Positions 7,835-51,143 of a stretch of 64,000 nt of DNA are shown piece by piece. Made by a program: the position numbers and the translations under genes. Under the pieces are notes generated by a model. That model saw only the letters and a list, made by a program, of their open reading frames with translations, ran no database searches and was not told the origin of the DNA. This stretch comes from Haladaptatus paucihalophilus DX253 (GTDB lineage: Archaea > Halobacteriota > Halobacteria > Halobacteriales > Haladaptataceae). The number at the start of each line of letters is the position of its first letter. Within the stretch, counting starts at the first letter, position 1. The stretch covers positions 2,629,734 through 2,693,733 of the forward strand of contig NZ_AQXI01000001.1 in the NCBI RefSeq assembly GCF_000376445.1, in the 5' to 3' direction.

Positions 7835-8007
7835 GGTCTATCACCACGGGCGTTGAGTGGTTCAGCGTGGAATCGATTCACAATCGACCACGCCACATTC
7901 CGTCCTGCAGTTGCAGGTGCCCACTGGTGCCCGTTTCCCAGCGAGTTATCGAACGTTCCCGGTTGGCGGGTTTAAGAGCTTCGTCTTCGCTCGTCACAAC
8001 CAGAGAT

Positions 8008-8020
8008 GTTTTATCAAATT
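8008..8020 (+). promoter_or_regulatory. TATA-like box for CHAT module copy 1
   Basis: GTTTTATCAAATT lies about 25 nt upstream of the ATG at 8040, the distance expected for a nearly leaderless archaeal transcript. Module copy 2 has a comparable ATTTTATTT box about the same distance from its first ATG. Confidence 0.4.
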
Positions 8021-8039
8021 ACGAGGAATACAACGTAAG

Positions 8040-8741
8040 ATGAACGACTGTCGGCCGTTATTCCGGGACGAGGAGGACGTGTACGTGTTCCGGGACCACC
8101 TCGAAAGCCTCCGACAGCACGGAAGTAACCTCCTCGTCACCGGCGAAGTGTCACAACGTGTTACGAACCGCGCGTCGCGCACCCTCTTCGGAGATGACAT
8201 GCACGACCGAAAACGCGTCCTCGCGCTCACGGACGCGGGAATCAACACCGCGAACGAGCATTTCCCGGCGGGCGTTTCGTATGACGATGCCTCCGTCTGG
8301 CTCATCGACCGCGGAAACCGTCGCCGCGCCATGCCACAGGCCGCCGCGGGGGTCAGCGAAACCCTCCCGCCGTTGGACGGCCACAACGGTCTCCACGAAC
8401 TCCGCGAGGAGATAGTGACCGCCGTCGGCTACTACGACGACGCCGCGGAGGGCGTCGCCCCGGCCGAGCTTCGGCTCTGTGTCGATTCGCTGAACTACCT
8501 CGTGGACGAACACGACCTGCTCGCGCTCAAGCGATTCCTGCGCTCCATCGGCGCGGTTACCAAGGGCGTTCGCGGAATGGCCCACTACCACCTTCCCGTG
8601 CCGGACGACGCCGACATGGTTGCTGAACTGTCGCCTCTATTCGACGCCCGAATCGAACTCCGGCAGCGGGACGGTGACCGTCCCGACCACCGGTGGCACA
8701 TCCCGTCCCTCGATATGACGACCGCGTGGGTAGACCTATAA
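8040..8741 (+). CDS. CHAT-module partner protein A, copy 1 (degenerate RecA/KaiC-like?)
   Basis: 233 aa from ATG 8040 (TATA-like box 25 nt upstream). Clearly homologous to the protein at 47761-48447: shared GSNLLVTGEV, RTLFG, FRSEIV/LREEIV, PAELRL-VDS, and KGVRGMAHYHLPVPDD...LSPLFDARIELR blocks in the same order. The GSNLLVTGEV strand-loop sits where a Walker A would be in RecA/KaiC-like folds, but the GK[ST] residues are missing; the later LRLCVDSLNYLV strand resembles a Walker B strand. So this may be a non-hydrolysing member of that superfamily; this is inference. I recall uncharacterised haloarchaeal DUF7504-type proteins of this look but did not verify it. It lies 28 nt upstream of the CHAT gene, almost certainly in one operon. 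Confidence 0.8.
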   Translation: MNDCRPLFRDEEDVYVFRDHLESLRQHGSNLLVTGEVSQRVTNRASRTLFGDDMHDRKRVLALTDAGINTANEHFPAGVSYDDASVWLIDRGNRRRAMPQAAAGVSETLPPLDGHNGLHELREEIVTAVGYYDDAAEGVAPAELRLCVDSLNYLVDEHDLLALKRFLRSIGAVTKGVRGMAHYHLPVPDDADMVAELSPLFDARIELRQRDGDRPDHRWHIPSLDMTTAWVDL

Positions 8742-8769
8742 GTATCTGGAATCTGAAACACACGAAATC

Positions 8770-10875
8770 GTGGAGCCACAGTTCGATTCGCTGGACGGAC
8801 GGTCCGGCGTCGAGATTCGGGACCCCATCGAGAAGGTGCGATTCGAGTTGCACACCCCGAGCGCCGTCGAACCGACGCCAGCAACCGCCGAATCGTTTTA
8901 CTATCCCGTCGATTCGGCCGTGACCGTCGAGACGGACGAGATAGTCTTCCCGATATTGGGGAGCATTTACGTATACTCGGCCGATGGCGAGTTTCTACAG
9001 GATTTCACGCCGAACAGTGACACCGAACTGACGATTGAACCGGGAGAGAAATACTATCAACTCAACGGGACGCCGATAGTCATCTATCTCTCGTTCTCGT
9101 CCGCGGTCACGATTCGAAAGTCGGAGACGGAGATACGGCTCTCGTTCGACGGATCGACGGCCGTTCGAATCGGCGCGCGTTCGTATCACGAATCCCCCGA
9201 GGGAACCATCACCGTCACCGGGTCGGTTCGGGATACGATGCGCGCGCTCTCGACGTTCGGGTCCGCGCTCAAGATGACGACTCCCGACCGCGCGCATCCG
9301 ACGCTCCGGGGGCATCCGCCGCTCGTGGAACTGGGCGACGAATTCCACGTTCCGGAGTCCATCGACCCGCCGGACACCGGCGTCCGACTCGAACTGCCCC
9401 TGTTGCACGAGAAGGTCTATCCGGCGGCGTCGTTGGCCTACTACCTCGGCGCGGAGGTGGTTCCGACGAGCGGGGTCCCCAAACTGGTCGCTGGTGACTT
9501 CGAGTACTCCCTCGAAAGCGACGGCACCTACGAGGGGATCCTGCATCGACTCCTCCGCCAGACCGCGTTTCTCGACTGTCTGGTTCGGACGGAAGGAATC
9601 GTCAAGGACGAACTCTACGAACGAAACCAACTGGAACCGCGCCTCGACTGGGACTTCGCGGACGTGTACGACAGTTCGCTCCCCGAGCAGTTGGAGACGT
9701 ATCTCTCGGTTCCCTTCGAGACGATTTCGGAGTACGTCCCGACGTGGACGCTCACGACGGACGTGACGCCGCTCGAAAAACACGCCGCGGTGTTGCCGTT
9801 TCTCGCGTACGACCTCTCCCAGATTCGTTCCGCGCCGCTCCGCTCCTCGAAGCAGTCGATTTCACAGCCACAGATGTTCGACGACTTCTACCGGACGGGA
9901 TTCACGCGGGGCGAAAAGCGCGAGTTCGAAAGCCCGGACCTTCTTCGGGGGGCGAGCGAGCGAACCGATGCGGGAAAAATCGTTCGACCCGACCCCGTGG
10001 AAACGACCGAACACGCGTGGATTGGGGATGGGTTTCCGTTGGGTGCGAACAAGTTGACGGTTGAGACTCTCAAACGCCGGTTCGACTACTCCGCGCCGAA
10101 CAAATCTGGAATTAGCATTCACGTCGTCTGTAACGACGGGGAGATGAGCGACGAAATCGTGGATGAACTGTACGGGTTTCGTGAACTGGTTGATTATGAC
10201 ATCACCATCGATTACAATCGAACTGTGGCCGAGTTGCGTGAGATAATTGAATCACCCATCGATTTGTTCCACTACGTTGGTCACGTAGACGAAAATGGAT
10301 TCCTCTGTGTCGATGGTAGTTTGGACGCTCAAACACTCGAGGACGTTGGTATCAAGGCATTCTTTTTGAACGCTTGTTCTTCGTACGAGCAGGGGATGGC
10401 ATTGATTGGGCGAGGTAGTATGGGTGGTGTGGTTACCCTTGCAGATGTTGCGAATAAGACTGCTACGAGAGTCGGTCGTACGTTTGCAAGTTTGCTAAAT
10501 AATGGATTTCAATTACGAACAGCTCTGTCAATTGCCCGTAAAGAAACGGTGTCTGGTTACAGATATATCACACTAGGCAACGGTGGACGACCATTGATGC
10601 AACCCGAAGGCGGTGTCCCAAGTTGGACATCTGTTTCTGATATGGGTGGTGAAAAATACGATGTTTCAGTTGAAACGTTTCTAGATATACGATGTGGGTT
10701 TGGTTCAACATTCACGATGAACGTTCTCGGTACATCTGCACGAAATCTTGTCTCGAATGGTATAGAATTTGAGAAAGTGAGTACGGATAAACTAAAGCAA
10801 TTCTGGAAATTAGAACGTCAACCCGCAGTTATCGGTGGGCAGGTTTGCTGGAATCCAATCAGACACCTCAATTGA
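8770..10875 (+). CDS. CHAT-domain protease-like protein, copy 1
   Basis: 701 aa from GTG 8770, a start supported by alignment with the copy at 48468 (both reach a DPIE-VRF block within ~18 residues). Residues 1-~440 are a conserved region of unknown fold, rich in beta-like stretches (YYLGAEVVP, LVAGDFEYSLES, LRQTAFLDCLVRTEG, LETYLSVPFETI). Residues ~450-620 match a CHAT domain (clan CD cysteine peptidase): SIHVVCNDGEM start, catalytic His in FHYVGHVDENG (H505) and Cys in FFLNACSSYEQG (C536), then GGVVTLADV. The last ~80 residues are specific. There is no signal peptide or TM, so it is cytosolic. The DNA from about 10130 on is much more AT-rich than the N-terminal part. Confidence 0.85.
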   Translation: MEPQFDSLDGRSGVEIRDPIEKVRFELHTPSAVEPTPATAESFYYPVDSAVTVETDEIVFPILGSIYVYSADGEFLQDFTPNSDTELTIEPGEKYYQLNGTPIVIYLSFSSAVTIRKSETEIRLSFDGSTAVRIGARSYHESPEGTITVTGSVRDTMRALSTFGSALKMTTPDRAHPTLRGHPPLVELGDEFHVPESIDPPDTGVRLELPLLHEKVYPAASLAYYLGAEVVPTSGVPKLVAGDFEYSLESDGTYEGILHRLLRQTAFLDCLVRTEGIVKDELYERNQLEPRLDWDFADVYDSSLPEQLETYLSVPFETISEYVPTWTLTTDVTPLEKHAAVLPFLAYDLSQIRSAPLRSSKQSISQPQMFDDFYRTGFTRGEKREFESPDLLRGASERTDAGKIVRPDPVETTEHAWIGDGFPLGANKLTVETLKRRFDYSAPNKSGISIHVVCNDGEMSDEIVDELYGFRELVDYDITIDYNRTVAELREIIESPIDLFHYVGHVDENGFLCVDGSLDAQTLEDVGIKAFFLNACSSYEQGMALIGRGSMGGVVTLADVANKTATRVGRTFASLLNNGFQLRTALSIARKETVSGYRYITLGNGGRPLMQPEGGVPSWTSVSDMGGEKYDVSVETFLDIRCGFGSTFTMNVLGTSARNLVSNGIEFEKVSTDKLKQFWKLERQPAVIGGQVCWNPIRHLN

Positions 10876-10879
10876 TATT

Positions 10880-11014
10880 TTAAGGGCCGATGTGAACTTC
10901 TGGACCCCCTGCCAACACAGGCGTGGTCTGCATCAACAACAGACTGGCCATGAACAAAGCGCCGATCATTCGTGGGTGCTGTGCGAGATACGTGGCGACA
11001 TCCTGTCGTGCCAT
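10880..11014 (-). CDS. 44-aa hydrophobic peptide convergent to CHAT gene, copy 1
   Basis: 44 codons plus TAA, read from ATG 11014. The peptide begins MARQDVATYLAQHPRMIG, then a hydrophobic stretch (ALFMASLLLMQTTPVLAGG), and ends in HIGP. It is one TM helix or signal-peptide-like, with a small-residue site at its end. A homologue of exactly the same length with the same HPR-[ML]-[IL]-G motif and a GP end sits in the same convergent position beside CHAT copy 2 (50550-50684). This conservation of motif, length and place argues for a real gene although it is short. It may be a membrane or secreted peptide, perhaps target, toxin or signal of the CHAT protein; function unknown. Its stop is 4 nt from the CHAT stop. 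Confidence 0.75.
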   Translation of the reverse strand: MARQDVATYLAQHPRMIGALFMASLLLMQTTPVLAGGPEVHIGP

Positions 11015-45916: not shown

Positions 45917-46711
45917 TCACACGTCCCGCCGTTCGAACAGCTCCGCGCTCACGACGAGCAGGGCGACGGCGGCGACGGCGAGCACCGCGAAATCGTCGGC
46001 GGACACGGTTCCGTCGGTCAGTATCTTCCCCACGTCGAAGTAGCGGGTGAACGCGAAATCTCCGATCCATTCGTAATCCGTCCCGAAGGTGACGGTATCG
46101 ACGAGGAACATTCCGAATATCGCGCCGACGCCGACCGTCCGGGCGCGGCGTGCCGTGTCGAATCGCACCGAGGCGACCATTCCGAGGCTCGCGCACGCGA
46201 GGAAGTAGACGATGGAGTAGGCGTGCAGGGCGAGCAGGTATCCGGGGTCGAGGAACTCGCCGATGAACTCGACGCTGACGTACACCGAGAGGAAGGTGAA
46301 CGCGTTGACGGCGAGCATGCTCGGAATGAGCGCGAGGTACTTTCCCATGACGAGGCGGGTTCGCGTGACCGGGTGGGCGAGCACCAGTTCGAGCGTGCCG
46401 TTCTCCATCTCCTTTGCGACGCTCGAAGCACCGGCGTACGCGTAGTAGATTCCGAGACCGAGGAGCCACGCGATTTGATAGAACTGCGAGGCGAGGTAGC
46501 CGTCGATGGTCGTGATGCTATCGACGTCGCCGATGAACGCGCGGCGCGCCTCCTCCGGCAAGTTCTGGATGTACGCATCGAGGTTGACGCCGGACTGCTG
46601 AATCGACGGGAACAGCGCGATGGTGAGCACGACGAAGGCGATGAGCGACCCCGACAGCAACAGCGTTCCGCGGACGCGCCGCCCCATCTCGAAGTTCGTT
46701 ATCTCGAACAT
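45917..46711 (-). CDS. ABC-2 type transporter permease
   Basis: 264 aa, six hydrophobic segments. LLLSGSLIAFVVLTIALFPS at the N-terminus, then SVAKEMENGTLELVLAHPVTRTRLVMGKYLALIP, the usual loop after TM2 of ABC-2 permeases. It follows the ATPase gene in the same direction with 39 nt between them. Exports an unknown substrate. Confidence 0.85.
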   Translation of the reverse strand: MFEITNFEMGRRVRGTLLLSGSLIAFVVLTIALFPSIQQSGVNLDAYIQNLPEEARRAFIGDVDSITTIDGYLASQFYQIAWLLGLGIYYAYAGASSVAKEMENGTLELVLAHPVTRTRLVMGKYLALIPSMLAVNAFTFLSVYVSVEFIGEFLDPGYLLALHAYSIVYFLACASLGMVASVRFDTARRARTVGVGAIFGMFLVDTVTFGTDYEWIGDFAFTRYFDVGKILTDGTVSADDFAVLAVAAVALLVVSAELFERRDV

Positions 46712-46750
46712 CGCGCCGGTCTTCTCCCCATTCGGATTTGCATGGCTCCT

Positions 46751-47692
46751 TCACGTTCCCCCGTAAAACTCCATGAACACGTCTTCGAGCGAGGTCTCCT
46801 CGACCTCCAAATCCAGAACCGAGTAGCGGTCGAGCACGTCCACGAGACCGTCGAAGTTCTCGGTGACGACCAGCCGGTAGTAGCCGTCCGGGTCGAGGTC
46901 GCTGCTTAGCGCCCCGTCGAACAACAGGTCGTCCGGCGGCGGGTCCTCCGCGAGGTCGAGGCGCACGATTTTGCCGCTTTTGGCCAGCAGTTCGCCGATG
47001 TTCTCCAGCGCGACGAGTCGCCCGTCGCGGATGATTCCCACGCGGTCACACACCTTTCGAACCTCGCTGAGGACGTGCGTCGAGAACAGCACCGTGACGC
47101 CGCGGTCGCGCTCCGCGAGCAACAGTTCGTACAGGGCGTTCTGTGCGAGCGGGTCGAGTCCCGCCGTCGGTTCGTCCATGATGAGGAGGTCCGGGTCGTG
47201 CATGAACGCCTGCACGAGCGCGAGTTTCTGTCGGTTCCCGCGGGAGTAGTTTTTCACGGCTCGGTCGATGGGGACCGGAAACCGGTCGAGCAACTCCTCG
47301 CGGCGCTCGTCGCCGGACAGCGTGGCGAAGTAATCGAGCAACTCCGCTCCGGTGACGTTCTCGTAGACAGTCGCGTCGCCGGGGACGTAGCCGATTCGGC
47401 CTTCCACGCTTCGCGTTCGCTCGGTGATTGTGTGTCCGAGAACCTGCGCGGTCCCGCTCGTCGGCTTCAGCAGGCCGAGCAGGAGTCGAATCGCGGTCGA
47501 TTTTCCCGCCCCGTTCGGCCCGAGAAAGCCGAATATCTCGCCCGATTCGACGGCGAACGTCAGGTCCTCGACGCCGCGAACGTCTCCGTAATACTTGGTC
47601 AACTCCTCGATGGCGATGGGTTCCGGCGCGGACACCGACGAATGAACGCCCGCGAGCGACTTATACGGTTCGCCGAACGTATCAGAGATCAT
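46751..47692 (-). CDS. ABC-2 transporter ATPase
   Basis: 313 aa. Walker A GPNGAGKSTA, Q-loop, signature YSRGNRQKLALVQAF (variant of LSGGQ), Walker B LLIMDEPTAGLDPLAQ and H-switch FSTHVLSEV. CcmA/NatA-like exporter ATPase. It is divergent from the CHAT module copy 2 (68 nt between starts). Confidence 0.9.
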   Translation of the reverse strand: MISDTFGEPYKSLAGVHSSVSAPEPIAIEELTKYYGDVRGVEDLTFAVESGEIFGFLGPNGAGKSTAIRLLLGLLKPTSGTAQVLGHTITERTRSVEGRIGYVPGDATVYENVTGAELLDYFATLSGDERREELLDRFPVPIDRAVKNYSRGNRQKLALVQAFMHDPDLLIMDEPTAGLDPLAQNALYELLLAERDRGVTVLFSTHVLSEVRKVCDRVGIIRDGRLVALENIGELLAKSGKIVRLDLAEDPPPDDLLFDGALSSDLDPDGYYRLVVTENFDGLVDVLDRYSVLDLEVEETSLEDVFMEFYGGT

Positions 47693-47760: not shown

Positions 47761-48447
47761 ATGGTTTCTCGCCTCAGGTTTCGAAACGAGTCGGGCGAGG
47801 GTTCCTCCGTCCGGGACGTGACGTTCAGGGAGTGGCTTTCCGGGTTGAAAGTCAGTGGCAGTAACTTGCTCGTCACGGGCGAGGTTCCCGAAACCACCAG
47901 CGCCGAGTTTAGCCGGACGCTCTTCGGACAGGGGAGACGAACGCGCATCCTCGGACTCCTCAATCCGGCGACGCCCGCCGCCGAGTCGTATCTCCCGGGT
48001 TCGCCCGACAGTCCGGGGACGCAGATCATCGACCGACGGCCGAACGACCGCGGGACGACGGCGACCTGTTCGAACGTCCACCGTCCGATGATCGACCGCC
48101 AGACGTTTCGCTCGGAGATCGTCTCCGCCATCGGCGTCCACGAGGAGCGAAACGGCGGCTTCGAACCCGCCGAGTTGCGCCTCGGTGTCGATTCGGTCGA
48201 GCTGTTGGAGGTGAACGACGACCTCGTTTCGGTCGGACAGTTCCTCCGGGGGCTTACCGCCCTCGTTCGCGGCGTTCACGGAATGGCACACTATCACCTT
48301 CGCGTCCCGGATGATGACCCGTTGGTGGAGGAACTATCGCCGCTGTTCGACGCCCGTATCGAACTTCGGAAGCGACCGGGATGGGCCGAACAACGGTGGC
48401 ACGTCCCGGAACTCGGTGAGACTACCCACTGGGTAGAATTATCATAG
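47761..48447 (+). CDS. CHAT-module partner protein A, copy 2
   Basis: 228 aa from ATG 47761. Homologous to 8040-8741 over its whole length, with GSNLLVTGEV, RTLFG, AIGVHEERNGGFEPAELRLGVDS and RGVHGMAHYHLRVPDDDPLVEELSPLFDARIELRKR-type blocks (kept in the same order). The strand-loop LLVTGEV lacks the GK[ST] of a Walker A. It is followed after 20 nt by the CHAT gene. No TM or signal. Possibly a nucleotide-free RecA-like sensor of the CHAT partner (inference). Confidence 0.8.
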   Translation: MVSRLRFRNESGEGSSVRDVTFREWLSGLKVSGSNLLVTGEVPETTSAEFSRTLFGQGRRTRILGLLNPATPAAESYLPGSPDSPGTQIIDRRPNDRGTTATCSNVHRPMIDRQTFRSEIVSAIGVHEERNGGFEPAELRLGVDSVELLEVNDDLVSVGQFLRGLTALVRGVHGMAHYHLRVPDDDPLVEELSPLFDARIELRKRPGWAEQRWHVPELGETTHWVELS

Positions 48448-48467
48448 CTGACCATACTACTGTTACC

Positions 48468-50549
48468 ATGGAGTTTCGGCGGCACGCGGAACACGACGGA
48501 CTCGACATCTACGACCCCATCGAGAACGTTCGGTTCGCGCTGTTTACGTCCGCGTCCGTAGACCCGACGCCGGTCGATACGTCGCCGTTTTACTTTCCGG
48601 TCGATGCCGCCGTCGAAATCGTGACGCCGATGCTCGAAGTCCCGAAAGCCGTGCCCATCACGGTTCGTCAACAGGACGGGACGATGATGGTCGAGACGTC
48701 GGACGAACGGGACCGAACCCTCGGTTCGGACGCGTATCTCGTCGAGGTGAGTACGGCACCGATGAAGCTCTACTTCCTCGTGGACGGACGAATGACCATC
48801 GAGCACGGCGACGATACCGTCCGCTTTTCGTTCGACGCGACGACGGCGGTTCGCGTCGGCGCGCGCTCCTTTCACGACCGCCCGGCGGGGACGATAACCG
48901 TCACGGACGACGTTCGTGACGTGATGCGCGCCGTCTCGCTGTTCGGGTCGGCGCTGAAGACGCTCTCGCCGGAACGGTCGTTTCCGACGCTCCGCGGCCA
49001 TCCACCGCTCGTCGAACGAGGTGAGACGTTTTCCGTGCCGAACGGACTCGGACCGGCGGCGACGGACGTCGAACTGGTCGTTCCACCCGACCGCGAACAC
49101 GTCTTCCCCGTCGTCTCGCTCGCGTACTATCTCGGTGCGACGGTCGTTCCGGGGCACGACCCGCGTCTCGTCGCGGGGTCGTTCGAGCGGTCGCTCGACG
49201 GACCCGGCGGGTACGTCGAAACGGTCAACCGCGTCCTCAGACAGACGTTCTTTCTCGACTGTCTCACGCGGACGGAGGGCTACTACAAGGTCGAACTGCA
49301 CGAGCGCGAGCGGGTCGAACCGCTGGTGGACCTCGATTTCGCCGACCTGTACGAAACGCCGCTCCCGGAGCGTCTCGCGGTTTACCTGTCCGTTCCGTTC
49401 GAAACGCTCGAACCGCACATCCCGAATTGGCGGTTGGGCGTTGACCTAACGCCGACGATCCAAAACGCCGAGTACATGCCGCACATCGCTCGTGACCTCG
49501 CGCTCGTTCGCATTCCCGACAAACCGACCTCGAAGACGGTCAAACCGATGTCCGACGCACAGTCGGAGTTCTTCCGTGCGCCCTCGTCGGAGGTCTTGGT
49601 TCGCGGAGCGAGCGGATGGGACACCGTAGACGGTCGGGACGTGTTTCAGGTGGACCCGATGCCGAACGTGATCGGGCAGGCGTGGGCCGGTCCGGGGTAT
49701 CCGCTCACGGTCAACAAACTCGACGTGAGCGCGCTTCGACAGCGTATCGACCGTCGCCCGTCGAACGAAACTATCGACATTCACGTCGTCTGCAACGACG
49801 AGCACATGCGGGAGGAAGACGTCGTTCGAGAACTGTACGGCTTGCGCGACCTGCTCGATTTCGACGTGACCGCCCACTACGACCTGTCGCGCGACGAGCT
49901 TACCGACCTGTTAGCGAAACCGGCGGACTTCATCCACTACATCGGCCACGTCGATGAGAACGGTATCCTGTGTGCCGACGGGTCGCTCGACGTGAAATCA
50001 ATCTCCGAAGTCGGCGTCTCCGCGTTTCTCCTGAACGCCTGCCAATCCTACGAACAGGGACGCGAACTGATCACGAAGGGAAGCCGCGGCGGTGTCGTGA
50101 CGCTCTCGCCGGTCGGGAATCCGATGGCGACGGAGCTCGGACGGACGCTGGCCCGTCTCCTCAATTGCGGGTTCCCGCTTCGACCGGCGCTGTCGATCGC
50201 ACAGCGACACTCGGCACACGGCTATCAGTACACCGTCTTGGGCGACGGCGGCTTGTCGCTCGTCCAGAGCGAGCGAGGAAGTCCGCAACACTTGAAAATC
50301 GAACGGGTTGGGGAGAACCGATTCGAAGTCGAGGTCAGCATGTATCCGACTGACCTGTTCGGGTTCGGCTCTCACACCAATTTCCACCCCAGTTGGTCCC
50401 ATCAACGGTTTCTTAGCACCTCGCCGGTGACGACGCTCGCGCTGACCGAGGAGGAACTCCGTGCGGAGTTCTCCGACCAGCTCATACCGATAGAAGCCAA
50501 CGGGGAACTGCGGTGGAGCGACGAGCTGTGTCTGTCCGAAATCGAATAG
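48468..50549 (+). CDS. CHAT-domain protease-like protein, copy 2
   Basis: 693 aa from ATG 48468. N-terminal ~430 residues are shared with copy 1 (YYLGATVVPGH, LVAGSFERSLDG, VLRQTFFLDCLTRTEG, RLAVYLSVPFETL). CHAT domain from ~430: IHVVCNDEHM, catalytic His in FIHYIGHVDENG (H494), Cys in FLLNACQSYEQG (C525), RGGVVTLSPV, then LARLLNCGFPLRPALSIAQ. Both catalytic residues are present and 31 residues apart, as in copy 1. It is GC-rich throughout, unlike copy 1. Ends at the stop of the convergent 44-aa gene with no gap. Confidence 0.87.
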   Translation: MEFRRHAEHDGLDIYDPIENVRFALFTSASVDPTPVDTSPFYFPVDAAVEIVTPMLEVPKAVPITVRQQDGTMMVETSDERDRTLGSDAYLVEVSTAPMKLYFLVDGRMTIEHGDDTVRFSFDATTAVRVGARSFHDRPAGTITVTDDVRDVMRAVSLFGSALKTLSPERSFPTLRGHPPLVERGETFSVPNGLGPAATDVELVVPPDREHVFPVVSLAYYLGATVVPGHDPRLVAGSFERSLDGPGGYVETVNRVLRQTFFLDCLTRTEGYYKVELHERERVEPLVDLDFADLYETPLPERLAVYLSVPFETLEPHIPNWRLGVDLTPTIQNAEYMPHIARDLALVRIPDKPTSKTVKPMSDAQSEFFRAPSSEVLVRGASGWDTVDGRDVFQVDPMPNVIGQAWAGPGYPLTVNKLDVSALRQRIDRRPSNETIDIHVVCNDEHMREEDVVRELYGLRDLLDFDVTAHYDLSRDELTDLLAKPADFIHYIGHVDENGILCADGSLDVKSISEVGVSAFLLNACQSYEQGRELITKGSRGGVVTLSPVGNPMATELGRTLARLLNCGFPLRPALSIAQRHSAHGYQYTVLGDGGLSLVQSERGSPQHLKIERVGENRFEVEVSMYPTDLFGFGSHTNFHPSWSHQRFLSTSPVTTLALTEEELRAEFSDQLIPIEANGELRWSDELCLSEIE

Positions 50550-50684
50550 TTACGGCCCGGAGTTTGCCCCACTCCCCGCGAGTACCGTTCCGAACTGCAG
50601 CACCAGCAAGCTGAGGGTGAACAGGACGCCGAGCAATCGGGGGTGATCTGCCAGTTTTCCACGTACCGCGTCTTTTTGCGACAT
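50550..50684 (-). CDS. 44-aa hydrophobic peptide convergent to CHAT gene, copy 2
   Basis: 44 codons plus TAA from ATG 50684. MSQKDAVRGKLADHPRLLG, then hydrophobic VLFTLSLLVLQFGTVLAG, and end NSGP. Same length, HPR motif and end as the peptide at 10880-11014. Its stop abuts the CHAT stop with no base between. An AT-rich upstream stretch (about 50708-50720) may be its TATA region, giving a leaderless mRNA. Function unknown; likely membrane-inserted. Confidence 0.78.
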   Translation of the reverse strand: MSQKDAVRGKLADHPRLLGVLFTLSLLVLQFGTVLAGSGANSGP

Positions 50685-50792: not shown

Positions 50793-51143
50793 TCATTGGG
50801 AGAATCCATCGATAGCGTCCGAAATGGGATCTTTGAGTTCGTGGATTACGTCGTCGAGTTCGTCGGACAGTCGCTGAAGCAGTCGGGCGTGCGTCGTCGT
50901 GGCGAGCGTATATTCGGGGTGTGAACCCCCCGTCTCTACCGTTTTCACCAGTTCGAGTTCGAGGAGGTCGTCCCGGTGGGCCGTCCACGTGCTCGGGGCG
51001 GTTCCGGCGTGGTCTACCAACTCCGTCGCGCTGAAACTCTCGTTCGGGTCGTCCGCGAGTACCGCGAGAAACTTCATTCGCGCCGGATAGGTGAACACCT
51101 GTGCGAGGGGAGGTGCGGTGAGGTCGGCCTCGGAGGGACGCAT
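50793..51143 (-). CDS. Winged-helix (ArsR/MarR-like) regulator beside CHAT copy 2
   Basis: 116 aa from ATG 51143 (MRPSEADLTAPPLAQVF). HTH wing region FTYPARMKFLAVLADDPNESFSATELVDHAG, then TAPSTWTAHRDDLLELELVKTVE, a helix-wing-helix pattern of haloarchaeal winged-helix proteins (HTH_20-like). C-terminal helix LLQRLSDELDDVIHEL likely dimerises. Two GTTTGAAAA direct repeats lie just upstream (51165-51173, 51188-51196). It is upstream of and in the same direction as the 44-aa gene. Confidence 0.75.
   Translation of the reverse strand: MRPSEADLTAPPLAQVFTYPARMKFLAVLADDPNESFSATELVDHAGTAPSTWTAHRDDLLELELVKTVETGGSHPEYTLATTTHARLLQRLSDELDDVIHELKDPISDAIDGFSQ

Follow-up and report, generated by a model that had tools for sequence, protein, structure and literature searches.

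The 64,000-nucleotide stretch of the Haladaptatus paucihalophilus DX253 genome analysed here (the window) carries, at positions 47761–50684, a three-gene module in which a DUF7504 gene (gene A, + strand) is followed by the gene for a CHAT protease with a predicted caspase fold (+ strand) and then by the gene for a 44-residue DUF7503 peptide (− strand), which lies tail to tail with CHAT, such that the two stop codons abut with 0 bases between them. Comparative sequence analysis across Halobacteria demonstrates a module of near-universal, CHAT-dependent occurrence, a hypervariable cassette across the convergent ends of the CHAT and peptide genes, and covariation between the tail of the peptide and the C-terminal domain (CTD) of the protease. 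We give about even chances to the reading that this module, with a caspase-like protease at its center, functions as a polymorphic ligand/receptor specificity pair. The initial annotation of the window had described the trio (hereafter copy 2) as a second complete copy of the module, and all three genes were found in place; copy 1, at 7857–11014, has the identical gene set in the same order.

Occurrence and Gene Geometry of the Module

Among the 194 Halobacteria genomes sampled, CHAT is present in 179 and DUF7503 in 165, usually once per genome. All 165 genomes with DUF7503 also have CHAT, and DUF7503 is found in 0 of the 15 CHAT-less genomes (Fisher p = 9e-15). The DUF7503 model also matches the Haloferax volcanii genome. 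At the fetched loci, a convergent peptide gene accompanies 81/93 CHAT genes, with the stop codons lying −3 to +13 bp apart in 70 of these 81, and gene A lies upstream on the same strand at 47/93 CHAT genes; in a sample of 20 loci chosen by their peptide, 19 have CHAT as a convergent neighbor. The convergent arrangement of CHAT and peptide is far above chance.

The module is near-core in Halobacteria; in Haladaptatus and Halorussus, it has been expanded and occurs on plasmids as well. Some haloarchaeal megaplasmids carry it, and the 4.3-Mb genome of our strain encodes ten CHAT paralogues, 16 DUF7504 genes, and six DUF7503 genes over the cut-off plus one divergent copy. We also considered a virus-borne module, and rejected this possibility because the module is absent from the viral contigs and phage records examined.

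A Hypervariable Cassette Spans the Convergent Gene Ends

We compared the peptide locus in 24 Haloarcula-like, 30 Halorubrum-like, and 15 Haloferax-like genomes, to which genus labels were assigned by sequence similarity with named loci, and compared orthologues across many genera in 36 disjoint pairs with a peptide. Within genera, the last ~90 CHAT codons and the last 5–7 variable codons of the peptide gene form one hypervariable patch. In the Haloarcula-, Halorubrum-, and Haloferax-like genomes, CHAT is conserved to about residue 600 and divergent beyond: across residues 611–670, the nonsynonymous difference (pN) is 0.27–0.51 compared to 0.04–0.20 before this segment, and the synonymous difference (pS) is about 0.7–0.8 compared to about 0.3–0.5. 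The CTD exceeds the core in amino acid difference in 36/36 disjoint pairs and in pS in 35/36, and, as pS is raised as well, the hypervariability is not due only to relaxed protein constraint.

The same comparison can be made for the two copies in the window. Between copy 2 and its nearest orthologue, L050, the amino acid difference is 0.15 in the core and 0.46 in the CTD, with pS values of 0.42 and 0.61, respectively, and between copy 1 and L093 the amino acid difference is 0.10 in the core and 0.51 in the CTD. The initial annotation had noted strong differences between the copies in N-terminal and linker sequence; the most variable part is instead the CHAT CTD together with the peptide tail. 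We note that, in most pairs, the N-terminal beta domain of CHAT (residues 1–139, 48468–48884) is likewise faster-evolving than the core, with pS not raised.

At the base level, the divergence profile of L213 and L215 has flanks that differ by only 0–3%, enclosing ~220 bp within the CTD that differ by 20–55%; the tails of this pair are one residue apart, and their tail bases differ by 10–15%. In the case of L166 and L174, the difference is 1–8% upstream, 30–80% in an island that runs from the CTD just into the peptide tail, and 0–5% across the rest of the peptide gene. Such islands of divergence between near-identical flanks imply that recombination brought in a different allele, and, judging from these profiles, the CTD/tail segment in some pairs has a history unlike that of its near-identical flanks. 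Furthermore, because the genes converge with zero gap, a single recombination event could replace both the ligand end and the receptor domain. Silent cassettes as a source of the variable domain were rejected: a search of two Haloarcula-like genomes and one Haloferax-like genome found none, with a single CTD in each, and our own strain has ten CTDs for ten CHATs.

The Peptide and Its Variable Tail

The copy 2 peptide matches Pfam DUF7503 at 59 bits (cut-off 27). The 102 family members follow the pattern [YF]L..[HN]P[RK]MxGxLFTxxLLLxQAGx[AV]xA, in which P-[RK] is kept in 101/102 peptides and the hydrophobic stretch comprises ~20 residues, followed by a tail of mostly 7–9 residues that ends in Gly-Pro and has a variable part of 5–7 residues. 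The tail is preceded by a signal-peptidase-like [AV]xA motif, with Ala/Val at position −3 in 93/102 members and Ala/Gly at position −1 in 100/102; the signal-peptidase I rule favors such residues at these two positions. Within genera, the leader is nearly fixed (pN 0.03–0.10) while the tail varies (pN 0.20–0.38), with NMATTNPGP, NVAQTTPGP, and NQATSVAGP as examples from one genus, and the variable residues lie between two fixed elements, the AxA site and the terminal GP.

Two further forms of the peptide were observed. A Haladaptatus subfamily has a peptide ending in ...GGTIR rather than GP (L024, 7147–7281; L111, 9074–9208; L119, 9071–9391), and in close members of this subfamily the CHAT CTD is not hypervariable (CTD/core ratio 1.3–1.4). 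At L049 (5576–5716), a divergent DUF7503-like open reading frame (MRDKIHQWLTEHPRTISAAF...SAGP) is convergent with the most divergent CHAT; this frame was not caught by the Pfam genome search, and absence of the peptide as judged by Pfam may therefore be an undercount.

The CHAT Protease

CHAT is predicted to adopt a caspase fold similar to those of gingipain, separase, and SAVED-CHAT, with a His/Cys dyad and extra flanking domains. In Pfam, the copy 2 protein gives only a sub-threshold match to PF12770 (E = 0.0026), P0002 scores 17.7 bits, which is below the curated Pfam CHAT cut-off of 24, and a PF12770 match at E ≤ 0.1 is found in 17/60 CHAT members. The AlphaFold2 model (pLDDT, the predicted local distance difference test score, 88.4) places the caspase fold at about residues 320–600, and its structural matches, which extend over ~240 residues with Z up to 21, include gingipain RgpB (Z 21.2), SAVED-CHAT (Z 18.2), separase (Z 17.4), and Craspase (Z ~14). 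Gingipain R and separase cleave after Arg. The domain order is an N-terminal beta domain, a helical part, the caspase fold, and a beta-rich CTD of about 95 residues. The initial annotation had claimed that both copies keep the dyad and the peptide, in agreement with our finding that the predicted catalytic residues His494 and Cys525 are invariant in 93/93 CHATs and that DUF7503 is present in both copies.

Covariation of Peptide Tail and CTD

With core difference held constant, tail difference correlates with CTD difference across the 36 disjoint pairs (partial rho 0.58, p = 3e-4), and partial Mantel tests of the same relationship give p values of 0.001 in Haloferax and 0.002 in Haloarcula. At equal core distance, the CTDs of a pair are mostly closer when the two tails are identical than when they differ. 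In two genera that have CHAT without a detectable peptide, the CTD difference is 0.16–0.24 at a core difference of 0.09–0.17 (CTD/core ratios of 1.2–1.9), compared to CTD differences of mostly 0.3–0.58 in peptide-linked pairs.

Several observations weigh against a ligand/receptor pair. The partial Mantel test is not significant in Halorubrum (p = 0.14), the peptide-less tandem CHAT pair L067_b1/L068_b1 has a fast CTD (0.51, compared to 0.14 in the core), and, among the disjoint pairs, larger tail differences are not accompanied by higher CTD/core ratios (rho −0.01). Because of this peptide-less pair and the independence of the ratio from tail difference, the tail/CTD association is best described, on present sequence comparisons, as real but not perfect. 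In addition, the tail is rich in small residues and has a pN/pS of 0.25–0.5, that is, below 1, such that positive selection on it is not demonstrated, and export is uncertain, as the leader exceeds ordinary signal peptides in conservation and, unlike in those, the residues preceding the helix are net negative.

The pN/pS of the tail and the fast CTD of the peptide-less pair, together with the fact that the 3′ ends of genes are often under weaker constraint, would also be in line with the absence of any ligand/receptor relation, with CTD and tail being weakly constrained adjacent gene ends and the patch resulting from fast drift and frequent haloarchaeal recombination. We regard this as improbable, since islands of 20–55% difference between flanks of 0–3% are incompatible with drift in place, CTD pS is raised in all but one of the disjoint pairs, the peptide-less genera keep a conserved CTD, and the terminal GP and the AxA site are fixed on either side of variable residues.

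Another possibility is that the peptide is a substrate, with CHAT cutting the single-pass membrane peptide DUF7503, for example after [HN]-P-[RK], and thereby freeing a toxic or signaling helix; the module would then act as a device for regulated cell death or stress, with the tail serving as a spacer. The best fold match to CHAT being an Arg-specific gingipain, with separase close behind, the near-invariant P-[RK] and the hydrophobic stretch of the peptide, the observation that the peptide never occurs without CHAT in the sampled genomes, and the strong caspase-like activity of H. volcanii, the gene for which is unknown (PMC3615174), all speak for such a device. We nevertheless consider it unlikely, as it fails to predict either the tail/CTD covariation or the synonymous divergence islands bounded by tail and CTD, a basic residue at the membrane edge is expected from topology alone, and the activity in H. 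volcanii is a LEVDase with a preference for Asp at P1 (PMC3615174), unlike the Arg-cutting nearest folds.

Gene A and the Age of the Two Copies

Gene A is predicted to encode an ATPase domain that resembles KaiC but lacks Walker A. The copy 2 protein matches Pfam DUF7504 at 154.6 bits (cut-off 27), and the best Foldseek matches of its AlphaFold2 model (pLDDT 88.8) are to KaiC CI (E = 8e-8, probability 1.00, TM-score ~0.58); the DUF7504 profile also matches KaiC by sequence (E = 3e-4), such that the likeness to the RecA/KaiC CI fold is found both by model and by profile. DUF7504 differs from the KaiC family in having one domain only, and in that the Walker A GK[TS] loop is missing at the P-loop position of the aligned sequences, where GKT is replaced by GSNLLVTGEVPETT.

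The DUF7504 genes of our strain outnumber its CHATs, and several KaiC-like DUF7504 genes occur without CHAT (L027, L030–L037), from which it follows that the family has other contexts. At six loci, mainly from Haloarculaceae (L075, L079, L110, L118, L120, and L127), an A-like gene without the QRWH C-terminus lies beyond the peptide gene and divergent from it, possibly as a separate recruitment.

The trees of A and CHAT, comparison of which the initial annotation had proposed as a check on whether modules evolve as units, have 30/43 splits in common across 46 loci, and the distance correlation between the two proteins is 0.76 (rho) compared to a permutation maximum of 0.22, or 0.82 compared to 0.54 within Haladaptatus alone. 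This agreement indicates that the two genes evolve together as one unit. The CHATs of the two copies are 44% identical. The proposal that the copies are paralogues rather than products of recent duplication is likewise borne out, and they are old: Haladaptatus sp. DYF46 has two different loci that group separately with them in the CHAT tree, L093 with copy 1 and L050 with copy 2, such that the copies predate that species split and a recent origin of copy 2 can be rejected.

Genomic Context in the Window

The coordinates of both copies and their neighbors are collected in Table 1. The G+C content of copy 2 (A 0.632, CHAT 0.627, and peptide 0.600, compared to 0.627 for the whole window) is genome-like, as initially annotated, and that of copy 1 CHAT is 0.552. 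The winged-helix neighbor and the divergent ABC-2 exporter reported at copy 2 are both present. Orthologues of the winged-helix gene sit at the equivalent place in L051–L053, but recur only in Haladaptatus, and we therefore rejected this gene as a general component of the module; the ABC-2 exporter was rejected as a component because it is not a conserved neighbor in relatives. Genes for HTH-10/Bat-like (helix-turn-helix) proteins and response regulators recur near CHAT modules (36 genes at 28 loci, e.g., L098, L125, and L100), and in some clades lie directly upstream of the peptide gene, on the peptide strand.

Table 1. Features of the Two Module Copies and Their Surroundings in the Window
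Feature	Position	Strand	Description and basis
Gene A, copy 2	47761..48447	+	228 aa; DUF7504, KaiC-like (RecA-superfamily) domain without Walker A
CHAT/caspase-fold protease, copy 2	48468..50549	+	693 aa; AlphaFold2 model and structure matches
Catalytic His494 (HYIGH), predicted	49947..49949	+	invariant, 93/93 module CHATs
Catalytic Cys525 (LNAC), predicted	50040..50042	+	invariant, 93/93 module CHATs
CHAT C-terminal beta-rich domain (CTD), residues ~600–693, hypervariable	50265..50546	+	copy 2 compared to L050
Inferred specificity cassette: CHAT 3′ end and tail-encoding end of peptide gene	50265..50576	.	divergence profiles of relatives, placed by alignment
Peptide DUF7503, copy 2	50550..50684	−	44 aa, small hydrophobic; Pfam 59 bits; 102-member family alignment
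Variable peptide tail GSGANSGP, after VLA signal-peptidase-like motif	50553..50576	−	column statistics, within-genus variability
Winged-helix (ArsR-like) gene, upstream of peptide gene, same strand	50793..51143	−	weak HTH matches
ABC-2 ATPase and permease, divergent from A	45917–47692	−	
Gene A, copy 1	7857..8741	+	DUF7504, Pfam 185 bits; true start probably internal
CHAT, copy 1	8770..10875	+	701 aa; 44% identical to copy 2 CHAT
Peptide DUF7503, copy 1	10880..11014	−	Pfam 67.4 bits; tail GGPEVHIGP

Proposed Mechanism and Relation to Known Systems

In the specificity-pair model that we favor, the DUF7503 gene would give rise to a short hydrophobic precursor, consisting of a constant membrane-type leader and a variable tail of 5–7 residues ending in Gly-Pro, and the CTD of the adjoining CHAT would bind and recognize this tail. 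Recognition would then switch the putative His/Cys protease either on or off. Gene A, as a KaiC-like domain that appears to have lost its nucleotide-binding loop and is inherited with CHAT, is probably a regulatory partner. The tail would thus act as ligand, the CTD as recognition domain, the caspase fold as executor, and A as KaiC-like partner, while the tail-to-tail gene order would keep the ligand end and the receptor domain together, such that they may diversify, and at times be exchanged, as one cassette.

A close parallel is found in the SHP/Rgg group III quorum-sensing systems of streptococci: there, the SHP peptide is encoded downstream of the receptor gene and in convergent orientation to it, and a short hydrophobic precursor provides the mature pheromone from its C-terminal part (PMC3679016). 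Both systems combine a short hydrophobic precursor gene downstream of and convergent with its partner gene, last few C-terminal residues that form the variable, informative part, and near-universal occurrence within the clade, some genomes having several copies. As in pheromone/receptor-type systems, a short hydrophobic precursor adjoins its partner gene (81/93 loci), and a variable peptide C-terminus is accompanied by a co-varying CTD, albeit not significantly in Halorubrum. The archaeal partner differs in being a caspase-fold protease rather than a helix-turn-helix/TPR receptor of the RRNPP/Rgg family, the archaeal peptide has a conserved C-terminal Gly-Pro, and its export, processing, and re-import are putative. 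In the comQXPA and agr pherotype loci, polymorphism is likewise focused on the signal and the receptor segment next to it, and yields specificity groups (PMC4408185, PMC3673130); the haloarchaeal module differs from these in having no maturation enzyme or histidine kinase, the two-component receptor being replaced by a protease.

With Craspase (TPR-CHAT/Csx29), SAVED-CHAT, and HetF, the haloarchaeal CHAT shares the fold, the His/Cys dyad, and an accessory sensing part; however, no TPR, SAVED, CRISPR, or sigma partner was seen with it, and the N-terminal beta domain and hypervariable C-terminal domain are its own. Neither NCBIfam nor PADLOC gave a match for A, CHAT, or the peptide, and a known anti-phage defense system (Craspase, SAVED-CHAT, or CHAT/gasdermin) was rejected for lack of a PADLOC match.

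The most likely output of a specificity pair would be an exported pheromone-like peptide, as in SHP/Rgg, ahead of a membrane-tethered switch for self-recognition or cell death. We also weighed self/non-self recognition upon contact or fusion of cells, in which peptide and CHAT would match within each strain, and a mismatched pair would de-repress the protease after mating or fusion and kill or arrest the hybrid, as in fungal heterokaryon incompatibility. A hypervariable cassette whose alleles diverge while their backgrounds are near-identical, and a caspase-fold protease as executor, would suit such a role, and Haloferax mates via cytoplasmic bridges (PMC7749143); yet the module is usually single-copy and near-universal, including in genera without documented fusion, and we think this role quite improbable.

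Implications for Haloarchaeal Biology

Our literature search turned up no publication naming DUF7503, DUF7504, or CHAT in haloarchaea, nor did it bring up any haloarchaeal system of peptide-based communication or allele-specific recognition. The parts of the module are known folds, and their combination and allele structure appear undescribed. We would tentatively, and with less than even confidence, go further and propose that the module is a near-universal haloarchaeal peptide-communication or kin-recognition locus with a caspase-like protease as receptor and pherotype-like alleles held in a cassette over the convergent gene ends, which would make this, as far as we know, the first description from Archaea of a peptide/receptor system that is genetically encoded and polymorphic.

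Archaea are said to lack caspase homologues, yet H. volcanii shows strong caspase-like activity (PMC3615174), and a caspase-fold protease family present in 179 of the 194 sampled Halobacteria genomes bears on this unexplained activity. The locus has the genetic signature of peptide communication or allele-specific recognition, with peptide and protease resembling a lock and key that differ between species, as at bacterial pheromone loci, and Haloferax, with one copy per genome, is a tractable genus in which to study it.

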